NCBI GenBank assembly: GCA_963205315.1 | Contig: CAUJIO010000037.1 | Span: 1-60,120 of the forward strand | DNA from: Pseudomonadota bacterium | Lineage (GTDB): Bacteria; Pseudomonadota; Alphaproteobacteria; Rhizobiales; Aestuariivirgaceae | Length of the DNA stretch: 60,120 bases | Reading direction: 5' to 3' | Part shown: piece after piece, positions 50,763 through 60,120 of the stretch | Layout of the letters: each line of letters starts with the position of its first letter | Numbering within the stretch: the first letter of the stretch is position 1 | Program-made: the position numbers and the translations under genes | The notes under the pieces: model-generated | The model's input: only the letters and a program-made list of their open reading frames with translations | Told to the model about the DNA's origin: nothing | Database searches by the model: none

Positions 50763-51408
50763 GCATGTTCTTGGGACCATGGGCGGGCCTCACGATGGTT
50801 TGCTCGATGTCGCCAGTCCGCGACGGGCCGGAAATCATGTTGACGGTGCGCGGCATGGTGCCTTCGCCGAATTGGCCGCGCAGCTTGCTCCATGCCTCTT
50901 CATAGCTGGCGAAAATATTCGCGGCCTCGAGCACGACGATGTGCACTTCCGGCAGGAAGTTGAGCGTCGTCGGGTTGTCCTGTCCCGATGTCTGGATAAT
51001 GGTGCCGGACTCGGCCACCCCGGCGAAGGCGCGGGTGATCGAGGCGCGGTCGCTTTCCTCGGCGCGGCCCACGGCGATTTCCAGCGTGCCGCGATGCCAC
51101 GGCAGTTTCGCCAGTACCGCATCCTGGCCACGGCGCAGTTGGGCGGGCAAATTGCTGTTGCGCAGGTAGTCGGCGGCGGCGTGCGGCACATCGTTGATGT
51201 CGTTCACGACTTCGACGGAGCCGCCCACCGCCTGCATCATCTCGGTGAAGACGCGCAGGCGATGCTCGTCATCGCCAATGCCACGGGCCGGGATGAGGTT
51301 GCGCGGGTGCGATGCCAGGTGCGCGTCGACGGCGGCGCGGCGCGCCTCGTCATTGCCTTTCGAGACCTTGGAGCGGATGCGGGCCAGCATGGCGTCACGG
51401 CTGCTCAT
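50743..51408 (-). CDS. lutC: Lactate utilisation protein C
   Basis: Subunit of the LutABC iron-sulfur L-lactate dehydrogenase. The 221-residue product has the LUD domain with AVGRAEESDRASITRAFAGVAESGTI and VVLEAANIFASYEEAW, then MPRTVNMISGPSRTGDIEQTIVRPAHGPK, the signature of YkgG/LutC. Its ATG is embedded in the lutB stop (ATGA). The long frame upstream of 51408 is only lutB antisense coding sequence. Confidence 0.94.
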   Translation of the reverse strand: MSSRDAMLARIRSKVSKGNDEARRAAVDAHLASHPRNLIPARGIGDDEHRLRVFTEMMQAVGGSVEVVNDINDVPHAAADYLRNSNLPAQLRRGQDAVLAKLPWHRGTLEIAVGRAEESDRASITRAFAGVAESGTIIQTSGQDNPTTLNFLPEVHIVVLEAANIFASYEEAWSKLRGQFGEGTMPRTVNMISGPSRTGDIEQTIVRPAHGPKNMHVIIVR

Positions 51409-52823
51409 TTCGCGCGCTCCTTCCACATCTGCTGGAAGGTCTTGCCTTGCGGAGCGGGGAAGTCGCGATATTTCGTCCAGCCCGAAGCGAGCGGCACGTT
51501 GCGCAAGCGGCCCTTGCCGTGGCCCATGTTGGCGAGCACACGGGCGGCGATCCGCGTTCCGAACTGATAGAGCTTCGGGCGCTTGGCGGCGAAGGCCCAG
51601 AAGCGCAGTCCCCAGCGGATTGAAGCCGGCTGCAGGTGGCGCTCGAACTCCTTCTCGCGCCAATGCCGCAGCATCTTCGGCAATGGAATACGCATCGGGC
51701 AGACTTCCTCGCAGCGGCCGCAGAAGGTCGAGGCATTGGGCAGATGCTTGGCATTCTCGATACCGACCAGCGCCGGTGTCACCACCGAGCCGATGGGGCC
51801 GGGATAGACCCAGCCATAGGCATGGCCGCCCACGGCATTGTAGACCGGGCAATGATTGAGGCAGGCGCCGCAGCGGATGCAGCGCAGCATGTCCTGAAAC
51901 TCCGTACCCAGAACATTCGAGCGGCCATTGTCGAGAATGACGACGTGATATTCTTCCGGGCCGTCGGGATCGCCGTCGCGCCTGGGGCCCGTCGACAGCG
52001 TGGTATAATTGGAAAAGTCCTGTCCCGTCGCCGAGCGCGCCAGCACGCGCAGGATGGTGGCGGCATCTTCCAGCGTCGGCACGATCTTCTCGATCGAGGC
52101 GATGACGATGTGGACCTTCGGCAACGTCTGCGTCAGGTCGCCGTTGCCCTCGTTGGTGACGATGATCGAGGTGCCGGTTTCGGCAATGAGAAAATTGGCG
52201 CCGGTGACGCCGGCATCGGCTTCGAAATATTTCTGCCGCAGTACGGTGCGGGCTTCTTCAACGAGGGCCGGGATCTCGGTCAGGTCGCGGTTGGGGTCGA
52301 GATGGGTGTGGGCCTTGCGGAAATCAGCTTCCACCTGATCGCGCGTCAGGTGCACGGCGGGCGCGATGATATGGCTCGGGCGCTCGTTGCGGATCTGGAT
52401 CAGGTACTCGCCGAGATCGGTCTCCACGGGCTGGATGCCGTTGGCCTCGAGATGATGGTTCAAGTCGATCTCTTCCGAGATCATCGACTTGCCCTTGGTG
52501 ACGACGCGGGCATTGGCCTTGCGGCAAATCTCGAGGATCTGCGCGCGGGCCTCTTCCGCCGTCGCGGCCCAGTGCACATGCCCGCCTGAGGCCTGCACCT
52601 TGGCCTCATAGCGCTCGAGATAGATATCGAGATGATCCAGCACATGGTTCTTGATGTCGCGCGACTGGTCGCGCAGCGCATCGAATTCGGGGAGCGCGTC
52701 GCGGGCCACGCTGCGCTTGGTCTGGAAGCGCGGCCCGGTCTCGGTCATGGCATATTGCAGCTGGGAGTCGGCAAGCGCCTTGATGACATTGGCCGGAAAC
52801 GTTGCGGCAGAGGCTTCCATCAT
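51405..52823 (-). CDS. lutB: Lactate utilisation iron-sulfur protein B
   Basis: The 472-residue protein has an N-terminal LUD domain (VVTKGKSMISEEIDLNHHLE, IAETGTSIIVTNEGNGDL) and a ferredoxin-like pair of 4Fe-4S motifs, CIRCGACLNHCPVY and CGRCEEVCPMRIP. It carries electrons from lactate in the LutABC complex. ATG 52823 overlaps the lutA stop. Confidence 0.95.
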   Translation of the reverse strand: MMEASAATFPANVIKALADSQLQYAMTETGPRFQTKRSVARDALPEFDALRDQSRDIKNHVLDHLDIYLERYEAKVQASGGHVHWAATAEEARAQILEICRKANARVVTKGKSMISEEIDLNHHLEANGIQPVETDLGEYLIQIRNERPSHIIAPAVHLTRDQVEADFRKAHTHLDPNRDLTEIPALVEEARTVLRQKYFEADAGVTGANFLIAETGTSIIVTNEGNGDLTQTLPKVHIVIASIEKIVPTLEDAATILRVLARSATGQDFSNYTTLSTGPRRDGDPDGPEEYHVVILDNGRSNVLGTEFQDMLRCIRCGACLNHCPVYNAVGGHAYGWVYPGPIGSVVTPALVGIENAKHLPNASTFCGRCEEVCPMRIPLPKMLRHWREKEFERHLQPASIRWGLRFWAFAAKRPKLYQFGTRIAARVLANMGHGKGRLRNVPLASGWTKYRDFPAPQGKTFQQMWKERAK

Positions 52824-53584
52824 TCGGCCTCCCCGATCGAGGGCGTCGCCATGTCGCCCGCCAGCACTTCGGCGACGTGGCGCACCTTGATGGCTGAGCC
52901 CTCGCGCTTCAGCTTGCCGGCCATGTTCATCAGGCAGCCCAGGTCGCCAGCGATCAGCGTATCGGCACCGGTATCGGCAATATGCTTCAGCTTCTTCTCC
53001 AGCATCTTGTCGGAGATGTCCGGATATTTCACGCAGAAGGTGCCGCCAAAGCCGCAGCAGACGTTCGAGTCGGTCATCTCGCGCAGCGACACGCCTTCGA
53101 CACTGGCCAACAGCTGGCGGGGTTCGGCACTGATGCCGAGTTCACGCAGGCCAGAACAGGAGTCATGATAGGTGGCGCGCGCAGCAAACTGCGCATCGAC
53201 CTTCTGCACCTTCATCACCCGCGTCAGGAACGACACGAGTTCGTAGGTGCGGTGCCCAAGCTCGACGGCTGCGGCATGGTCGGCCGTGCCTTCGGCAAAG
53301 AGTTCGGGGTAATGCTTGACGATCATGCCGGCACACGACCCAGACGGCGCCACGACATAGTCGAACCCCCTGAACGCGGCGATGATATTGCGGGCCAGGG
53401 TCACGGCATCGGCCTTGTCGCCGGAATTATAGGCCGGCTGGCCGCAGCATGTCTGGGTATCGGGGACTTCGACGCGGCAGCCCGCATCCTCCAGCAGCTT
53501 CACCGCAGCAAAGCCGATCGATGGCCGCATCATGTCGACGAGGCAGGTGACAAACAGACCGACGCGCGGGCGAGCTTCAGGCAT
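52820..53584 (-). CDS. lutA: Lactate utilisation protein A (CCG-domain)
   Basis: The 254-residue protein has two cysteine-rich CCG domains with VPDTQTCCGQPAYNSG and DSNVCCGFGGTF, plus APSGSCAGMI and YHDSCSGLRELG, which coordinate iron-sulfur or disulfide redox centres. The start ATG 53584 gives the normal family length; the frame continues upstream into the divergent glcD leader. It is the first gene of lutABC-unknown-unknown-FAH. Confidence 0.95.
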   Translation of the reverse strand: MPEARPRVGLFVTCLVDMMRPSIGFAAVKLLEDAGCRVEVPDTQTCCGQPAYNSGDKADAVTLARNIIAAFRGFDYVVAPSGSCAGMIVKHYPELFAEGTADHAAAVELGHRTYELVSFLTRVMKVQKVDAQFAARATYHDSCSGLRELGISAEPRQLLASVEGVSLREMTDSNVCCGFGGTFCVKYPDISDKMLEKKLKHIADTGADTLIAGDLGCLMNMAGKLKREGSAIKVRHVAEVLAGDMATPSIGEAE

Positions 53585-53744
53585 GGATCCTCTTGGGTCC
53601 TCGGAACAGAGACAGCAGACGACGGGTTTTGCCAGCCCATGGAGGCACCCGCAAGCCCGATTGCTGGCCGCCACCCGCGGGGAGGCCATGCATGGGCGAT
53701 CTTCCGTTGCATTCGGGATCGCTCGGAGGCTATTTCTGGTCGCC

Positions 53745-55235
53745 ATGCTGACCATGCCCGTTCCCGATTCCGCCGTCCTGGCCAAGCGCGACGCGATTGC
53801 CGCAGCGCTCCGCGCCATCGTGCCCGGCGAAGGGGTGATCGCCCAGCCCATCGAGATGCGGGCGTTCGAGACCGACGGCTTGACCGCCTACCGGCAAATG
53901 CCGCTGGTCGTCGTGCTGCCGGAAACCACCGCACAGGTCTCCGAGGTTCTGAAATACGCCCATGCCAATGGCATCAAGGTGGTGCCGCGCGGGGCCGGCA
54001 CCTCGCTGTCAGGCGGGGCGCTGCCGCTGGCGGATGGCATCCTTCTGGGTTTGTCCAAATTCAACCGCGTGCTGGAGATCGACTATGCCAACCGCTGCGC
54101 CGTGGTGCAGCCGGGCGTCACCAATCTCGCCATCACCAAGGCGGTGGAGCACAAGGGCTTCTACTATGCGCCCGACCCGTCCTCGCAGATCGCGTGCACC
54201 ATCGGCGGCAATGTGGCGGAAAATTCCGGCGGCGTGCATTGCCTGAAATACGGCCTCACCGCCAACAACGTGCTCGGCATCGAGATGGTGCTGATCGGCG
54301 GCGAGATCATTCGCCTCGGTGGCAAGCATCTCGATTCGGAGGGCTATGATCTCCTGGGAATCATGACCGGTTCGGAAGGCCTGCTCGGCGTCGTCACCGA
54401 AGTCACCGTGCGCATCTTGCAGAAGCCCGAGACGGCGCGCGCCGTGCTCGTCGGCTTTCCGACCAGCGAGGATGCCGGCACATGCGTCGCCGACATCATT
54501 TCGGCCGGCATCATTCCGGGCGGCATGGAAATGATGGACCGGCCCGCCATCCATGCGGCCGAAGAATTCGTGCATGCCGACTATCCGCTCGATGTCGAAG
54601 CGCTGCTGATCGTCGAACTCGATGGGCCGCAAGTCGAAGTCGATCACCTGATCGAGCGCGTCTCCGCGATCGCCAAGGCCAACCGCTCCTCAACCTTGCG
54701 GATCTCGACATCGGAAGCCGAACGCATGCTGTTCTGGGCCGGGCGCAAGGCGGCCTTTCCGGCGGTCGGGCGCATTTCGCCGGATTACATCTGCATGGAC
54801 GGCACGATCCCGCGGAAGCGTCTGCCTGAAGTCCTGCGCGGCATGACCGAGCTGTCGGCGAAACATCGCCTTCGTGTCGCCAATGTATTTCACGCCGGTG
54901 ACGGCAACCTGCATCCCCTGATCCTGTTCGATGCCAACGACCCGGACGAACTCGACCGCGCCGAGAAATTCGGCGCCGATATCCTGAGGCTCTGCGTCAA
55001 GGTCGGCGGCGTGCTGACGGGCGAGCACGGCGTCGGCATCGAGAAGCGCGACCTGATGCCCGAGATGTTCAGCGAGGACGATCTGGCCCAGCAGATGCGG
55101 GTCAAGTGCGCCTTCGACGATCAAGGCCTGCTGAATCCCGGCAAGGTGTTTCCGACATTGCACCGCTGTGCCGAGCTTGGCCGCATGCATGTGCGCGGCG
55201 GGCAGTTGCCCTTCGCCGATATTCCGAGATTCTGA
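53745..55235 (+). CDS. glcD: Glycolate oxidase subunit GlcD
   Basis: FAD subunit of glycolate oxidase, converting glycolate to glyoxylate. The 496-residue protein has the PCMH FAD domain (VPRGAGTSLSGGALP, CTIGGNVAENSGG, GIMTGSEGLLGVVTEVT) and the C-terminal FAD-oxidase part with FHAGDGNLHPLI and GEHGVGIEKRDLM. The start is ATG 53745 (CGGAGG upstream) or ATG 53754. It is divergent from lutA across 160 bases and overlaps glcE (TGATG). Confidence 0.95.
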   Translation: MLTMPVPDSAVLAKRDAIAAALRAIVPGEGVIAQPIEMRAFETDGLTAYRQMPLVVVLPETTAQVSEVLKYAHANGIKVVPRGAGTSLSGGALPLADGILLGLSKFNRVLEIDYANRCAVVQPGVTNLAITKAVEHKGFYYAPDPSSQIACTIGGNVAENSGGVHCLKYGLTANNVLGIEMVLIGGEIIRLGGKHLDSEGYDLLGIMTGSEGLLGVVTEVTVRILQKPETARAVLVGFPTSEDAGTCVADIISAGIIPGGMEMMDRPAIHAAEEFVHADYPLDVEALLIVELDGPQVEVDHLIERVSAIAKANRSSTLRISTSEAERMLFWAGRKAAFPAVGRISPDYICMDGTIPRKRLPEVLRGMTELSAKHRLRVANVFHAGDGNLHPLILFDANDPDELDRAEKFGADILRLCVKVGGVLTGEHGVGIEKRDLMPEMFSEDDLAQQMRVKCAFDDQGLLNPGKVFPTLHRCAELGRMHVRGGQLPFADIPRF

Positions 55236-56386
55236 TGGCTGACGTGGTGAAGCCGGCAAGCCTTGCCGAACTGGCGGAATGCGTCCGTTCGGCGGACACG
55301 CCATTCGAGATCATCGGCTCCGGCACCAAGCGCGGGCTTGGCCGCCCGGTGCAGGCGGCGCGCACGCTCGACATGTCAGGCTTCTCGGATGTCATCATCT
55401 ATGAGCCGGAAGAACTGATCCTCGAGACCGGTGCCGGCACAAGGCTCGCCGATATCGAGGTGCTGATCGCCGCAAAAGGCCAACAACTGGCCTTCGAGCC
55501 GCCGGACTATTCGCGCGTCCTCGGCAGCGCCCACAGCGGCAGCATCGGCGGGCTCATCGCCTGCAATCTCTCCGGCCCGCGCCGCATCAAGGCCGGGGCG
55601 GCGCGCGACCACATCCTCGGCATTCACGGCGTCACCGGCATGGGCGACATGTTCAAGGCCGGGGCGCGGGTGGTGAAGAACGTCACCGGCTATGACATGC
55701 CGAAGCTGCTGACCGGTTCCTATGGCACGCTGGCCGCCTTGAGCGCCATCATCCTCAAGGTTCTGCCGCGGCCCGAGACCGAAGAGACCATCGTTCTCGA
55801 AGGACTCGACGACACGCAGGCGATCGCTCACATGAGCATCGCCATGCAATCATCCTGTGAAGTATCGGGGGCGGCCCACATTCCGGGCGAAGGCACCTAT
55901 CTCAGGCTCGAAGGTATCGCACCCTCGGTTGCCTACCGGCGCGACCAGCTGGCAAGAACACTGGGCCAGCCCGTGCAAGTGCTGGCGGCCAGAAGTTCGA
56001 TGGCCAAATGGCAAGCCATCCGCGATGCGTCGATGTTCGCGGGCGACCTGACGCGGCCATTGTGGCGGCTATCGGTCACGCCGTCGGATGCGCCCCGCCT
56101 CATCGCTTTGCTCCGTTCACAGATGGATTTGCGTCATTGCCTTGACTGGGCCGGCGGCCTCGTGTGGATCGAAGTGCCTCCGTCCGCCGATGCCGGTGCT
56201 GCGGCCATCAGGACCGCACTGCCGTCGGGCCATGCGATGCTGTTCCGCGCGCCGGACTCGGTGCGCGCCGCCGTCGACGTGTTCCAGCCGCAGGCCCCGG
56301 CGCTGGCCGCCCTGTCGTCGCGGGTCAAGGCCTCCTTCGATCCGAAGGGCCTGTTCAATCCCGGCCGCATGTCGCGGGTGTCCTGA
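55235..56386 (+). CDS. glcE: Glycolate oxidase subunit GlcE
   Basis: Second FAD-binding subunit, 383 residues, shorter than GlcD as in E. coli. It has the PCMH motifs IIGSGTKRGLGRPV, AHSGSIGGLIACNLSGPRR and GARVVKNVTGYDMPKLLTGSYG, typical of GlcE. ATG 55235 shares a base with the glcD stop and its own stop shares a base with glcF, showing tight coupling. Confidence 0.95.
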   Translation: MADVVKPASLAELAECVRSADTPFEIIGSGTKRGLGRPVQAARTLDMSGFSDVIIYEPEELILETGAGTRLADIEVLIAAKGQQLAFEPPDYSRVLGSAHSGSIGGLIACNLSGPRRIKAGAARDHILGIHGVTGMGDMFKAGARVVKNVTGYDMPKLLTGSYGTLAALSAIILKVLPRPETEETIVLEGLDDTQAIAHMSIAMQSSCEVSGAAHIPGEGTYLRLEGIAPSVAYRRDQLARTLGQPVQVLAARSSMAKWQAIRDASMFAGDLTRPLWRLSVTPSDAPRLIALLRSQMDLRHCLDWAGGLVWIEVPPSADAGAAAIRTALPSGHAMLFRAPDSVRAAVDVFQPQAPALAALSSRVKASFDPKGLFNPGRMSRVS

Positions 56387-57675
56387 TGCAAACCACCTTC
56401 ACCGCAGAGCAACTCGCAACGCCGCGCATCGCGGAAGCCAACACCATCCTGCGCAAGTGCGTGCATTGCGGCTTCTGCACCGCCACCTGCCCGACCTATG
56501 TGCTGCTGGGCGACGAACTCGACAGCCCACGCGGCCGCATCTACCTCATCAAGAACATGCTGGAGAGCGGCGAGGCGGCAACCGAACAGACGGTCAAGCA
56601 TGTCGACCGCTGCCTGTCGTGCCTGTCCTGCATGACGACGTGTCCGTCGGGCGTCAACTACATGCACCTGATCGACGAGGCGCGGGCGCATGTCGAGGAA
56701 ACCTACACGCGGCCGTTGTTCGAGCGCCTGCTGCGCGATGTGCTGGCCTTCACCATGCCGCGCCCCAGACTGTTCCGCCTGTCGCTGATCGCGGCAAAAC
56801 TTGCTTCACCACTCAGGCCAGTTGCCGAATCTTTCGGTGCAACGCGCATCGCCGCCCTGCTCGGTCTCGTCCCCAAGACGATGCCGGCACCCGAACGCTT
56901 CGGCGCACCCGGAACCTATCCGGCAATGGGCGAGAAGAAAGGCCGCGTCGCGCTGCTGATGGGGTGTGTGCAGAGCGTGCTCGATCCCGGCATCAATGCC
57001 GCAACGCTGCGCCTCTTGACGCGCCTTGGCTACGAGGTCGTAGTCTCTGGCGAGGAGACCTGCTGCGGTTCGCTCACTCACCACATGGGCAAGGAAACCG
57101 ATGCGCTGACCCGGGTCCGTGGCTCGATTGATCAGTGGACGGACGCCAATGTCGATGCCGTCATCATCACCGCGTCGGGCTGCGGCACGACGATCAAGGA
57201 CTATGGCCACATGCTACGGCTCGATCCCGCCTATGCGGAGAAGGCAGAGGCCATCAGCGCCAAGGCGAAGGACGTCACCGAGTTCTTGGCCCAGCTCGAC
57301 CTTCCGGAAACGAAGATGGCGCTGCGGCTGGCCTATCACTCCGCCTGCTCGATGCAGCATGGCCAGAAGATCAGGAACGAGCCTCTGACTCTCTTGCGCC
57401 GTGCCGGTTTCGAGGTGATGGAAGTGCCGGAAGGATATCTCTGCTGCGGCTCCGCCGGCACCTACAACATCCTGCAGCCAGAGATCGCCACGAGGCTGCG
57501 CGACCGCAAGGTGGCCAATATCGAATCGCTCCAGCCCCAGGCCATCGCCACCGGCAATATCGGCTGCATCACGCAGATCGGCACAGGCACCAGCATTCCC
57601 ATCCTTCATACCATCGAATTGCTCGACTGGGCCTATGGCGGACCAAAACCGCCGAAGCTCGACGGACACGCCTGA
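56386..57675 (+). CDS. glcF: Glycolate oxidase iron-sulfur subunit GlcF
   Basis: The 429-residue subunit passes electrons from the flavin subunits towards the quinone pool. It has two 4Fe-4S motifs, CVHCGFCTATCPTY and CLSCLSCMTTCPSG, and two CCG domains (GEETCCGSLTHHMG, GYLCCGSAGTYN). The malate-synthase-like gene begins two bases after its stop. Confidence 0.95.
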   Translation: MQTTFTAEQLATPRIAEANTILRKCVHCGFCTATCPTYVLLGDELDSPRGRIYLIKNMLESGEAATEQTVKHVDRCLSCLSCMTTCPSGVNYMHLIDEARAHVEETYTRPLFERLLRDVLAFTMPRPRLFRLSLIAAKLASPLRPVAESFGATRIAALLGLVPKTMPAPERFGAPGTYPAMGEKKGRVALLMGCVQSVLDPGINAATLRLLTRLGYEVVVSGEETCCGSLTHHMGKETDALTRVRGSIDQWTDANVDAVIITASGCGTTIKDYGHMLRLDPAYAEKAEAISAKAKDVTEFLAQLDLPETKMALRLAYHSACSMQHGQKIRNEPLTLLRRAGFEVMEVPEGYLCCGSAGTYNILQPEIATRLRDRKVANIESLQPQAIATGNIGCITQIGTGTSIPILHTIELLDWAYGGPKPPKLDGHA

Positions 57676-57677
57676 CC

Positions 57678-59186
57678 ATGGCGAAGCCCTCACGCGGCAT
57701 TGATGTTCTACCCAAGGTCGGCCGCGCCACAGCGAGGGTGTTCAGCAGCGATGCCCTGAATTTCGTCGGTGAATTGCAGCGCGTCTCAAAGCCCGGACGC
57801 GATCTGGCCAGACAGCAGCGCGCCGAACGCCAGCAGATGTTCGACAAGGGCGGGCTGCCGGATTTCAGGCCGGAGACGGCGGCAATCCGCGCCGGTTCGT
57901 GGAAGGCGGCGGCGCTGCCGCGCGATCTTGCCGACGTGCGGTGCGGCATCGTCACAGCACCGGCGCGCAAGGATCTGCTTCTGGCGCTCAATTCCGGTGC
58001 AAGACTTTGCCTGGCGGATTTTGCCGACGTCCTGTCGCCCGCCTGGGACTCGCTGATCGACGCTCACCTCAATCTCATGGACCGCTGGACCAGCGCCATG
58101 GAGCATGTCGACCCCGCCAACGGCCGGCGCATCTCCTTGTCGCAACGGCTGGCAACGCTGATGGTGCAGCCACGCAGCCTGATGGCGGATGAGCCGCGGG
58201 TGAAATGCGACGGCAAGCCGGTGGCCTCCGGCCTGTTCGATGCCGGTCTCTATCTCTTCCACACGGCGAAGGTGGCGTTGGCGAAGGCCTCAGCCCCCTA
58301 TCTGCAACTCGCCGATATCGCATCGCAAGCCGAGGCGCGGCTGTGGAACGATATCCTGTTGCATGCACAGAGCCTGCTTGGACTGCCCGCGGGCACGATC
58401 CGCGTTCATGTGCGCATCGACACGCTGTCCGCCGCCTTCGAGATCGACGAAATCATCCACGAGCTGCGCGAGCACATCGCCGGAGTGTCATGCGGTGGGT
58501 TCAGCTACGGCTTCGATGTGGTGCGAAGCCTTGGCCGCCACAAGACACGCATCAGCGGCGATGACGGCATAGCGGATACGGCCCTCAGGGATCTCCTCGT
58601 GCGCACGGCGCATCATCGCGGCCTGACAGCGCTGGCTCCCTTGGCCCGTGCCGATGCAAAGGCGCTGGGCGAACAGGCTGTGCGTTCGGGATTTGATGGC
58701 TTGTGGGTCTCGCATCCTGAACACGTGGCGGCAGCGCAGAAAGTCTTCAACGACGACATGCCGACGGCCAACCAGATCTACGTCTCGCGCGATGACGTGG
58801 TGGTTTCACAGAAAGACCTTGTTGCGGTCACTGGCAATACGCCTTCGACAGCATCCCTGGCTGATCACATCCGGGCTTCAATTCTGGTACTGGACTCGTG
58901 GCTCAGCGGTGGCGGCAGCGTCACGGTGGACGGAGCAATCGAGGACAGGACGAGTGCAGACTTTCGCCGGGCGCAATTGTGGCAGTGGCTGCATCATGGC
59001 GTGAAGCTCGACACGGGTGCGAAGTTGACCGCTGCGCTGTTCGACAAGGTTTTGATCGAAAGTCTCGCCTCGCTCAAGTCCAGCAATGGCCGCTTCAAGG
59101 AAGCCGCGGCCCTGCTGAAGACAATGGTGTCAGCACCCGATCTCGAGACTGACATTTTCACGCAAGCCTGGAAAAAGCTCGCATGA
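57678..59186 (+). CDS. Malate synthase A-like protein with altered metal site
   Basis: The 502-residue protein aligns along its length with AceB-type malate synthase: LPDFRPETAAIR (60-71), ADFADVLSPAWDSLIDAHLN (113-132), EARLWNDILLHAQSLLGLPAGTI, RTAHHRGLTALAPL, SGFDGLWVSHPEHV, GAIEDRTSADF and LWQWLHH. But the Mg ligand Glu252 (E. coli numbering) is Asp248 here, and the second ligand Asp280, in the invariant GRWD motif, is Ser276 in CGGFSYGF. The Arg of RVRGLHL is Gln164. The probable base Asp447 is kept (Asp423). It may be inactive, act on another substrate, or be regulatory. It sits between glcF and ureD with overlapping ends. Confidence 0.85.
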   Translation: MAKPSRGIDVLPKVGRATARVFSSDALNFVGELQRVSKPGRDLARQQRAERQQMFDKGGLPDFRPETAAIRAGSWKAAALPRDLADVRCGIVTAPARKDLLLALNSGARLCLADFADVLSPAWDSLIDAHLNLMDRWTSAMEHVDPANGRRISLSQRLATLMVQPRSLMADEPRVKCDGKPVASGLFDAGLYLFHTAKVALAKASAPYLQLADIASQAEARLWNDILLHAQSLLGLPAGTIRVHVRIDTLSAAFEIDEIIHELREHIAGVSCGGFSYGFDVVRSLGRHKTRISGDDGIADTALRDLLVRTAHHRGLTALAPLARADAKALGEQAVRSGFDGLWVSHPEHVAAAQKVFNDDMPTANQIYVSRDDVVVSQKDLVAVTGNTPSTASLADHIRASILVLDSWLSGGGSVTVDGAIEDRTSADFRRAQLWQWLHHGVKLDTGAKLTAALFDKVLIESLASLKSSNGRFKEAAALLKTMVSAPDLETDIFTQAWKKLA

Positions 59187-59968
59187 CCGAAGGTGCCGCC
59201 GTCCGCCACCAGCGTTCGGAGGGCAGCATTCTCCTCAGCACCGGGGCAACAGGCCTACGCCGCATGCGCGAAGACGGTGCGGCGAAAGTCCGCCTGCCGA
59301 TCAACAGCACGGATGCCATCCTCATCAACACTGGCGGCGGTCTGGCGGGTGGTGACCGTTTCCGCTTCGACATCACGGTCGAGACCCAGGGCCAGCTCAC
59401 CGTCACCTCGCAAGCCGCAGAACGCGTCTACCGCACGCTCGGCCCGCCAGCCACCGTGGACGTGTCGCTGAAGGCGGAGGCCGGTACGTCACTCATCTGG
59501 CTGCCGCAGGAGACGATCCTGTTCGATGGCGCCGCGCTGGTGCGCTCGATCGAGGCCGAGCTTGCCTCCGATGCCCGGTTTCTCGCCGTCGAGAGTGTGG
59601 TGCTTGGCCGCGAGGCCAGCGGCGAGACGGTGACCAACGCCAGCCTGCGCGACCGCTGGCGCGTCCGCCAGGCGGGCAAGCTGATCTTCGCCGACGATCT
59701 GGCCTTCGATGGCGCACCACCCGCCAGCCTCGCGACACTGGGAGAAGCCCGCGCCTTCGCCACCGTGGTGCTGGTGGACCGGCAAGCCGAAGACCTCGTT
59801 GAGAGGGTCCGCGCAGAAATCGGCGGCACCGGCAGCGCCAGCGCCTGGTCTGGCAAGCTGGTTGCAAGGATCTGCGCAAGAGACGGCTTCATGCTGCGCA
59901 AATCCTTGATTCCAGCACTTTCGGTGCTGAGCAGAGGGGGTGCGCTGCCTAAAACCTGGTCATTCTGA
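59183..59968 (+). CDS. ureD: Urease accessory protein UreD
   Basis: Scaffold for nickel delivery to urease, acting with UreF and UreG. The 261-residue protein shows the UreD pattern AILINTGGGLAGGDRFRFDI, VTSQAAERVYR and WLPQETILFDGA. ATG 59183 overlaps the malate-synthase-like stop by four bases; ureA follows after nine bases behind GAGGGGA. The size is normal for alphaproteobacterial UreD. Confidence 0.95.
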   Translation: MTEGAAVRHQRSEGSILLSTGATGLRRMREDGAAKVRLPINSTDAILINTGGGLAGGDRFRFDITVETQGQLTVTSQAAERVYRTLGPPATVDVSLKAEAGTSLIWLPQETILFDGAALVRSIEAELASDARFLAVESVVLGREASGETVTNASLRDRWRVRQAGKLIFADDLAFDGAPPASLATLGEARAFATVVLVDRQAEDLVERVRAEIGGTGSASAWSGKLVARICARDGFMLRKSLIPALSVLSRGGALPKTWSF

Positions 59969-59977
59969 GGGGAATTT

Positions 59978-60120
59978 ATGCAACTGACGCCACGCGAGAA
60001 GGACAAGCTGCTGGTTGCCATGGCAGCCATCGTCGCCCGCAAGCGGCTCGAGCGGGGCGTCAAGCTCAACCACCCGGAAGCCATCGCACTCATCACCGAC
60101 TACGTTGTCGAGGGAGCCCG
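59978..60120 (+). CDS. ureA: Urease gamma subunit (partial, 3' end outside window)
   Basis: The first 47 codons read [20 protein letters not shown] and continue with [20 protein letters not shown], the standard UreA N-terminus. A GAGGGGA ribosome binding site precedes ATG 59978. The order ureD-ureA fits the usual urease operon, which presumably continues beyond the window. Confidence 0.95.

Follow-up and report, generated by a model that had tools for sequence, protein, structure and literature searches.

Gene Arrangement at the Locus

The window, by which we mean the whole 60,120-nucleotide stretch of DNA analysed, contains a gene derived from malate synthase A (MSA) between glcF and ureD (Table 1). 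Its reading frame is open for 502 codons plus a stop codon, and the GC content by codon position is coding-like. The gene begins 2 nt past the glcF stop codon and overlaps ureD by 4 nt at its other end. The starts of glcD and glcE are estimates (the glcE frame is open from position 55106). The divergent pair consists of a LutB/LldF-like gene and a second gene, all matches of which fall below their cut-offs and which we take to be LutA-like; by synteny, such a pair stands beside glcDEF-MSA in several families. Behind ureD, a reading frame resembling the start of ureA (59978–60120) is cut by the contig end.

Table 1. Genes and catalytic-site features of the locus
Feature	Position	Strand	Details
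LutB/LldF-like and LutA-like genes, divergent	51405..53851	-	TIGR00273, 483.5 bits, cut-off 444.8 (first gene); synteny
glcD	53724..55235	+	NF008408, 696 bits, and TIGR00387, 527 bits, both under cut-offs; synteny
glcE	55235..56386	+	NF008439, 283.1 bits, slightly under cut-off 284
glcF, glycolate oxidase iron-sulfur subunit	56374..57675	+	NF008434, 462.8 bits, cut-off 333
MSA-derived, pseudoenzyme-like gene	57678..59186	+	502 aa
D114-F-A116-D117 (canonical DFED)	58017..58028	+	Mg-water Glu to Ala; both Asp retained
Gln164, for substrate Arg of VRPRG motif	58167..58169	+	MSG Arg338; Arg retained in G014
Asp248, for Mg ligand Glu of IET motif	58419..58421	+	same in G014
GFS (274–276, within GGFS), for RWD	58497..58505	+	Mg ligand Asp to Ser276; GMN in G014
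Asp423, catalytic-base Asp of MED motif	58944..58946	+	retained
ureD	59183..59968	+	PF01774, E 5.4e-50

The original prediction that the encoded protein aligns with AceB along its whole length is borne out by near end-to-end MSA alignments (PDB entries 3cux, E 8.5e-92, and 3cuz, E 1.5e-81) and by matches to the N-terminal, barrel, and C-terminal domains (Pfam MS_N, MS_TIM-barrel, and MS_C). The score against the MSA equivalog model TIGR01344 is 392.1 bits, below the cut-off of 594.5, and the canonical MSA of a congener (G022) scores 819.5 bits. Scores against this model are low in all five genomes with a degenerate MSA described below. Several loops are shorter than in the G022 protein. AF2 predicts that the MSA fold is kept, the predicted fold being partly imposed by an input alignment in which all 39 other rows are canonical homologs.

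The Catalytic Site

Both Mg ligands of MSA, the Glu of the IET motif and the Asp of GRWD, are replaced in the window protein (Asp248 and Ser276). Gln164 occupies the position of the substrate Arg, and the catalytic-base Asp is present as Asp423. These features, together with GFS in place of RWD, had been read from the DNA in the original prediction and all hold in the alignment. In addition, the DFED-type motif has lost its Glu (now Ala116) and kept the neighboring Asp117. According to the available excerpt of PMC3832036, a Glu/Asp pair binds the Mg waters in malate synthases, with the Glu hydrogen-bonding to a Mg-bound water; we infer from sequence that the DFED-type motif supplies this pair. 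The adenine pocket is also altered. Thr95, Gly96, and Met102 of E. coli MSA, in a CoA/adenine pocket whose residue roles are given in the excerpted text of PMC3112382, correspond to Val92, Thr93, and Asp99, in a mapping from the alignment that allows for a one-residue numbering offset and agrees with the column analysis. Across 147 canonical loci, invariance reaches 97% or more in 135 alignment columns; the window protein keeps only 70 of these, an ortholog from the same genus (G014) keeps 83, and the canonical congener G022 keeps 134. The loss of the Glu at position 116, the column count, and the shortened loops go beyond what was originally noticed.

A predicted enzyme fold with its catalytic residues lost is the signature of a pseudoenzyme. 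Judged by these residues, the protein is very probably not a Mg-dependent malate synthase, in agreement with the original prediction. It could be argued that the protein still makes malate at an unusual metal site, where Asp248 does the work of the Glu and the Asp at 276 is replaced by a water or some other group. In favor of this, Asp is a conservative substitute for Glu, Asp423 and the predicted fold are retained, and the part of PMC3112382 at hand cites a crenarchaeal malate synthase that does not require Mg. However, E116A, D276S, and R164Q occur together, and the genome contains a canonical malate synthase G (MSG). Moreover, the excerpt of PMC3832036, which deals with malate synthases and CitE-like enzymes, describes the metal and water-binding Glu/Asp residues of both as absolutely conserved and the Arg as conserved, and E. 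coli MSG retains 6.6% activity after an Arg to Lys change by itself. We consider an unusual but active metal site very unlikely.

An Ortholog with a Similarly Altered Site

The G014 ortholog is 61% identical and lies in the same place (LutB-LutA/GlcDEF-MSA-UreD). Its site residues include Ala116, Asp248, Gly274, and Asn276, with Arg164 retained, and Asp114, Asp117, and Asp423 are retained in both proteins. The two proteins form one clade in the tree (SH-aLRT 100), and the nearest other row by path is, narrowly, G022. Homologs of the clade with GRWD and Glu were named in the original prediction as a refutation, and the comparison divides on this point: the nearest canonical congener, G022, has both GRWD and the metal Glu, and the ortholog has the altered site. 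The matching changes in a separate genome contradict an artifact of sequencing or assembly, against which the coding-like codon-position GC also speaks; the probability of such an artifact is negligible.

Twenty-four near-invariant columns are in the same changed state in the two proteins (20 with the same residue, 4 with a shared gap), which places much of the loss before the two diverged. A further 24 have changed to different residues, 17 in the window protein alone, and 4 in G014 alone. By this comparison the window gene has gone further than its ortholog in losing near-invariant residues, and the excess of 17 over 4 could be continuing erosion.

Selection on the Degenerate Gene

For the window gene and its G014 ortholog, a pairwise codon model gives an omega of 0.054 (2ΔlnL of 259 against omega 1), a value made imprecise by the saturated dS of 5.4, compared with 1.1–1.9 for the neighboring genes. 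Rescaled with the dS of the neighbors, omega is ∼0.16–0.26, still well under 1, and it is <0.13 in each of three parts of the gene (with dS saturated). A counting method gives a ratio of 0.22, next to 0.26 for glcE, 0.27 for ureD, 0.09 for glcD, and 0.11 for glcF. Weaker codon selection, or a history unlike theirs, may account for the high dS relative to the operon neighbors. In neutral simulations at three distances, 0 of 900 runs remained without stops. The open frame, the simulations, and an omega far below 1 strengthen the original argument against decay. They point to maintenance by selection after the catalytic residues were lost, as measured on one species pair with saturated dS.

A different account is that of a slowly eroding remnant, redundant through MSG, whose frame would persist for the time being because translation of glcF and ureD is coupled through it. 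The protein has diverged fast (61% identity to G014, compared with 88–90% for GlcD and GlcF, but 73% for GlcE and 70% for UreD), has suffered further losses of its own, and is absent from close relatives. The gene abuts or overlaps its neighbors, and the low TIGR01344 scores of all five degenerate genomes are in keeping with erosion. Nor are the old catalytic columns specially conserved: the window and G014 proteins are 66% identical at near-invariant columns, 62% and 67% at mid-conserved columns, and 50% at the most variable columns, and the canonical pair G022–G025 is 99% identical at near-invariant columns. Yet two species carry the gene without stops, whereas 900 of 900 neutral runs gained them; omega is low in all three gene parts, subject to the saturated dS; and the most variable columns are less similar than the remainder (50% vs. 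62–67%). Coupling would also preserve the frame, not the residues. Erosion is an unlikely explanation of the gene as it stands, yet a serious competitor in view of the gene's absence from close relatives, the further losses in the window copy, and the flat profile of conservation.

Probable Origin within the glc Operon

Canonical MSA adjoins glcF in eight of 17 canonical loci from several families, three of them in congeners (G022, G025, and G004) and five in other families or genera (G046, G055, G130, G191, and G114). In two loci (G247 and G389) it lies near glcF with a gap, and in seven (G222, G286, G166, G246, G109, G369, and G418) glcDEF was not seen in the stretch examined, so the tie of MSA to GlcDEF is not general. 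Given the adjacency of glcF and MSA at canonical loci, the window gene is most readily understood as the MSA native to this operon, altered in situ.

Among 30 glcF loci of the genus, the position following glcF is occupied by canonical MSA in four (G004, G007, G025, and G027), by degenerate MSA in two (the window genome, G000, and G014), and by ureD in five (G011, G034, G026, G006, and, at a contig end, G028). MSG lies directly behind glcF in another 5/30 (genomes G008, G009, G010, G030, and G031; loci L243, L230, L232, L237, and L240), which is isoform replacement within the operon. At the remaining 14, MSA, MSG, and ureD were not seen within the 1.5 kb examined. The glcF match in six congeners (G003, G010, G016, G024, G030, and G031) includes one stop codon, where the match may overrun the gene end or the break may be real. 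Nine congeners with MSG and a glcF 83–87% identical have no MSA, so any new role of the window gene is dispensable.

The urea genes had originally been offered as an explanation. This is contradicted by the congeners with ureD behind glcF, which have no MSA and a glcF 76–87% similar to that of the window, and by G267, a genome of another family, in which no UreD match was found in the 12 kb examined around a degenerate MSA. The ureD link looks incidental.

Co-occurrence with Malate Synthase G

A separate canonical malate synthase, for which the original prediction advised a search, is present in the window genome: an MSG at C4:7697–9832 scores 1132 bits against a cut-off of 989. Isocitrate lyase (TIGR01346) has no match in this genome. 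At locus L100 of the same contig (4301–5596 and 6671–8842), a CitE/malyl-CoA-lyase-like gene, whose best NCBIfam match is citE, under cut-off, lies upstream of the canonical MSG at a distance of ∼1 kb, and a further frame separates the two.

Within the family, 38 of 69 genomes have MSG (≥200 bits) and 14 have MSA, with both present only in G000 and G014. Canonical MSA and MSG occur together in 0/12, a count that includes G056, whose MSA, seen in part, is split into two open frames. In the order, full-length MSG is found in the degenerate genomes G267 (1102 bits), G223 (979), and G131 (967), the latter two just under the 989 cut-off, and in one of 72 non-degenerate MSA genomes tested (G288). 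The order set comprises 95 genomes with an MSA match, left from 102 matches after removal of own-family G000, G025, and G054 and of the weak or fragmentary G123, G225, G292, and G334; 75 of the 95 were tested for MSG (3 degenerate, 72 not), the other 20 being set aside by no fixed rule. Motifs were viewed in all 72, of which G160 has an in-frame stop and no visible base position. Three of five order genomes tested that have no MSA carry MSG. In the class, MSG occurs in two of 69 genomes tested (G496 and G572), with motifs tabulated for 67 (G518 and G788 left out). G288, G496, and G572 show canonical MSA motifs beside MSG. Pooled over family, order, and class, MSG is present in 5/5 degenerate and 3/153 other MSA genomes tested (Fisher test, 7e-8), or 3/3 against 3/153 if counted as three lineages (3e-5), shared ancestry being ignored in both. 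E. coli carries both isoforms, so their exclusion is not a universal rule. It is probable that MSG rendered the MSA of the window redundant.

Recurrence in Other Lineages

The seven catalytic-site residues were tabulated for 265 rows (263 loci plus the window gene and G022, with several loci for some genomes), and all seven are present in 252. The 13 deviating rows are the window gene, G014, G223, G131, and G267 (the last three twice), two with D114C only, and three incomplete frames. The MSAs at L316 (G755) and L321 (G524) are otherwise canonical, with Cys for the first Asp of the DFED-type motif. Degenerate MSA is thus found in five genomes from three families (G000, G014, G267, G223, and G131). 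Separate origins for the last three are indicated by family code and synteny, their very long branches not being placeable by tree.

In G267, LutB-LutA/GlcDEF are followed directly by a 499-residue MSA-like protein with Ala for both Glu116 and Asp117, Thr for Arg164, and Asp for Glu248, and without the GRWD stretch. This protein shows no MED motif, so that its base position has no certain alignment, and no MS_C domain is detected by Pfam. In G130, a relative of G267, the genes stand in the same order and the MSA is canonical. Of 27 other genomes in the family, 25 have a match, canonical where the motifs are readable; G826 is represented by two fragments only.

G223 and G131, of the third family, share neighbors at a non-glcDEF locus that holds a canonical MSA in their congeners G166 and G246. 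One of the seven sites is changed in G223 (D276N); in G131 neither the metal Glu nor the base Asp is left, and D117E is a further change. In this genus (eight genomes), canonical MSA occurs without full MSG in G166, G246, and G321, MSG without MSA in G287 and G305, MSG with degenerate MSA in G223 and G131, and neither in G268.

Further afield, in a scan of genome contigs, which did not reach near relatives, the best 80 of 284 loci (33–40% identity) are all canonical at the seven sites. Matches in 76 plasmid records are all <60% identical; the 25 of these listed are 35–38% identical, 24 annotated as malate synthase and 1 unannotated. We found no treatment of a malate synthase pseudoenzyme in the open-access literature searched; for metazoan glyoxylate-cycle genes, pseudogene formation is named in the title of PMC1630690.

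Function of the Retained Protein

Our leading, still tentative, explanation is that the window gene is the original MSA of a glcDEF-MSA operon, degenerated in place and retained as a pseudoenzyme that would serve glycolate/glyoxylate metabolism through binding or regulation. With MSG supplying malate synthesis, Mg-dependent condensation by MSA would have been freed from selection, and the MSA-derived protein may then have been retained for a role independent of that chemistry. Such a role would most likely be non-catalytic binding or assembly with GlcDEF, or that of a glyoxylate- or acyl-CoA-responsive pathway partner. That the retained role is non-catalytic is, taken by itself, a possibility we put forward with some reserve.

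The rival to a non-catalytic role is a repurposed catalyst, in which the same barrel would perform different chemistry, a different acyl-CoA or 2-oxo acid being one conceivable substrate, with Asp423 as base and no Mg-glyoxylate site. Retention of Asp114, Asp117, and Asp423 in the window and G014 proteins would suit catalysis, as would Arg164 in G014, and both purifying selection and the 20 shared replacements at near-invariant columns are consistent with it. But the two proteins disagree at positions 164 (Gln vs. Arg) and 276 (Ser vs. Asn), where a common new active site would be expected to be better conserved, and the adenine-pocket positions are altered. Because of this disagreement, and because G131 has lost the base and none can be located in G267, we think a non-catalytic role more likely than a new chemistry common to these proteins. 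We regard repurposing as rather unlikely.

It is possible to speculate further, with considerable doubt, that the MSA following glcDEF also does non-catalytic work, for instance as a subunit or a glyoxylate/acyl-CoA-sensing partner of glycolate oxidase, which becomes visible once MSG takes over. On this view, at least two glcDEF operons would each have kept, independently, a pseudo-malate-synthase with a ruined metal site, and a third, non-glc locus would hold others. If the retained protein does bind GlcDEF or sense glyoxylate, it would disclose a hidden role of malate synthase in the operon.

The metal-site Glu/Asp, termed absolutely conserved in the excerpt of PMC3832036, is changed in three lineages, each with a second isoform. 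These genomes form a natural experiment on a displaced enzyme, which may be deleted, replaced within the operon, or retained without its active site, and they counsel caution in annotating such genes as malate synthase. The original interpretation as a whole is partly supported.

Comparison with Known Systems

The window protein differs from MSA (AceB, TIGR01344; PDB entries 3cux, 3cuz, and 3cv2) in both Mg ligands, the Mg-water Glu, the substrate Arg, CoA-pocket residues, and several loops, and its equivalog score is below cut-off. With MSG (GlcB, TIGR01345) it has the superfamily in common. The MSG of E. coli has a glc-operon context, like the window gene. A TIM barrel and a C-terminal lid carrying the base Asp are shared with the CitE-like/malyl-CoA lyase family as described in the available text of PMC3832036. 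The Mg-binding Glu/Asp and the Arg that are conserved in these lyases are missing from the window protein, which has no metal site; the MS_N domain further sets the window protein apart, the extra N-terminal domain being a feature of MSA and MSG (same excerpt). A further parallel is offered by dead paralogs that partner active enzymes, such as the AdoMetDC prozyme of T. brucei (PMC5201418, in the part available). The prozyme is likewise an enzyme fold retained without catalytic residues, but in the present case the active enzyme is a different isoform, MSG, and any partner is putative.
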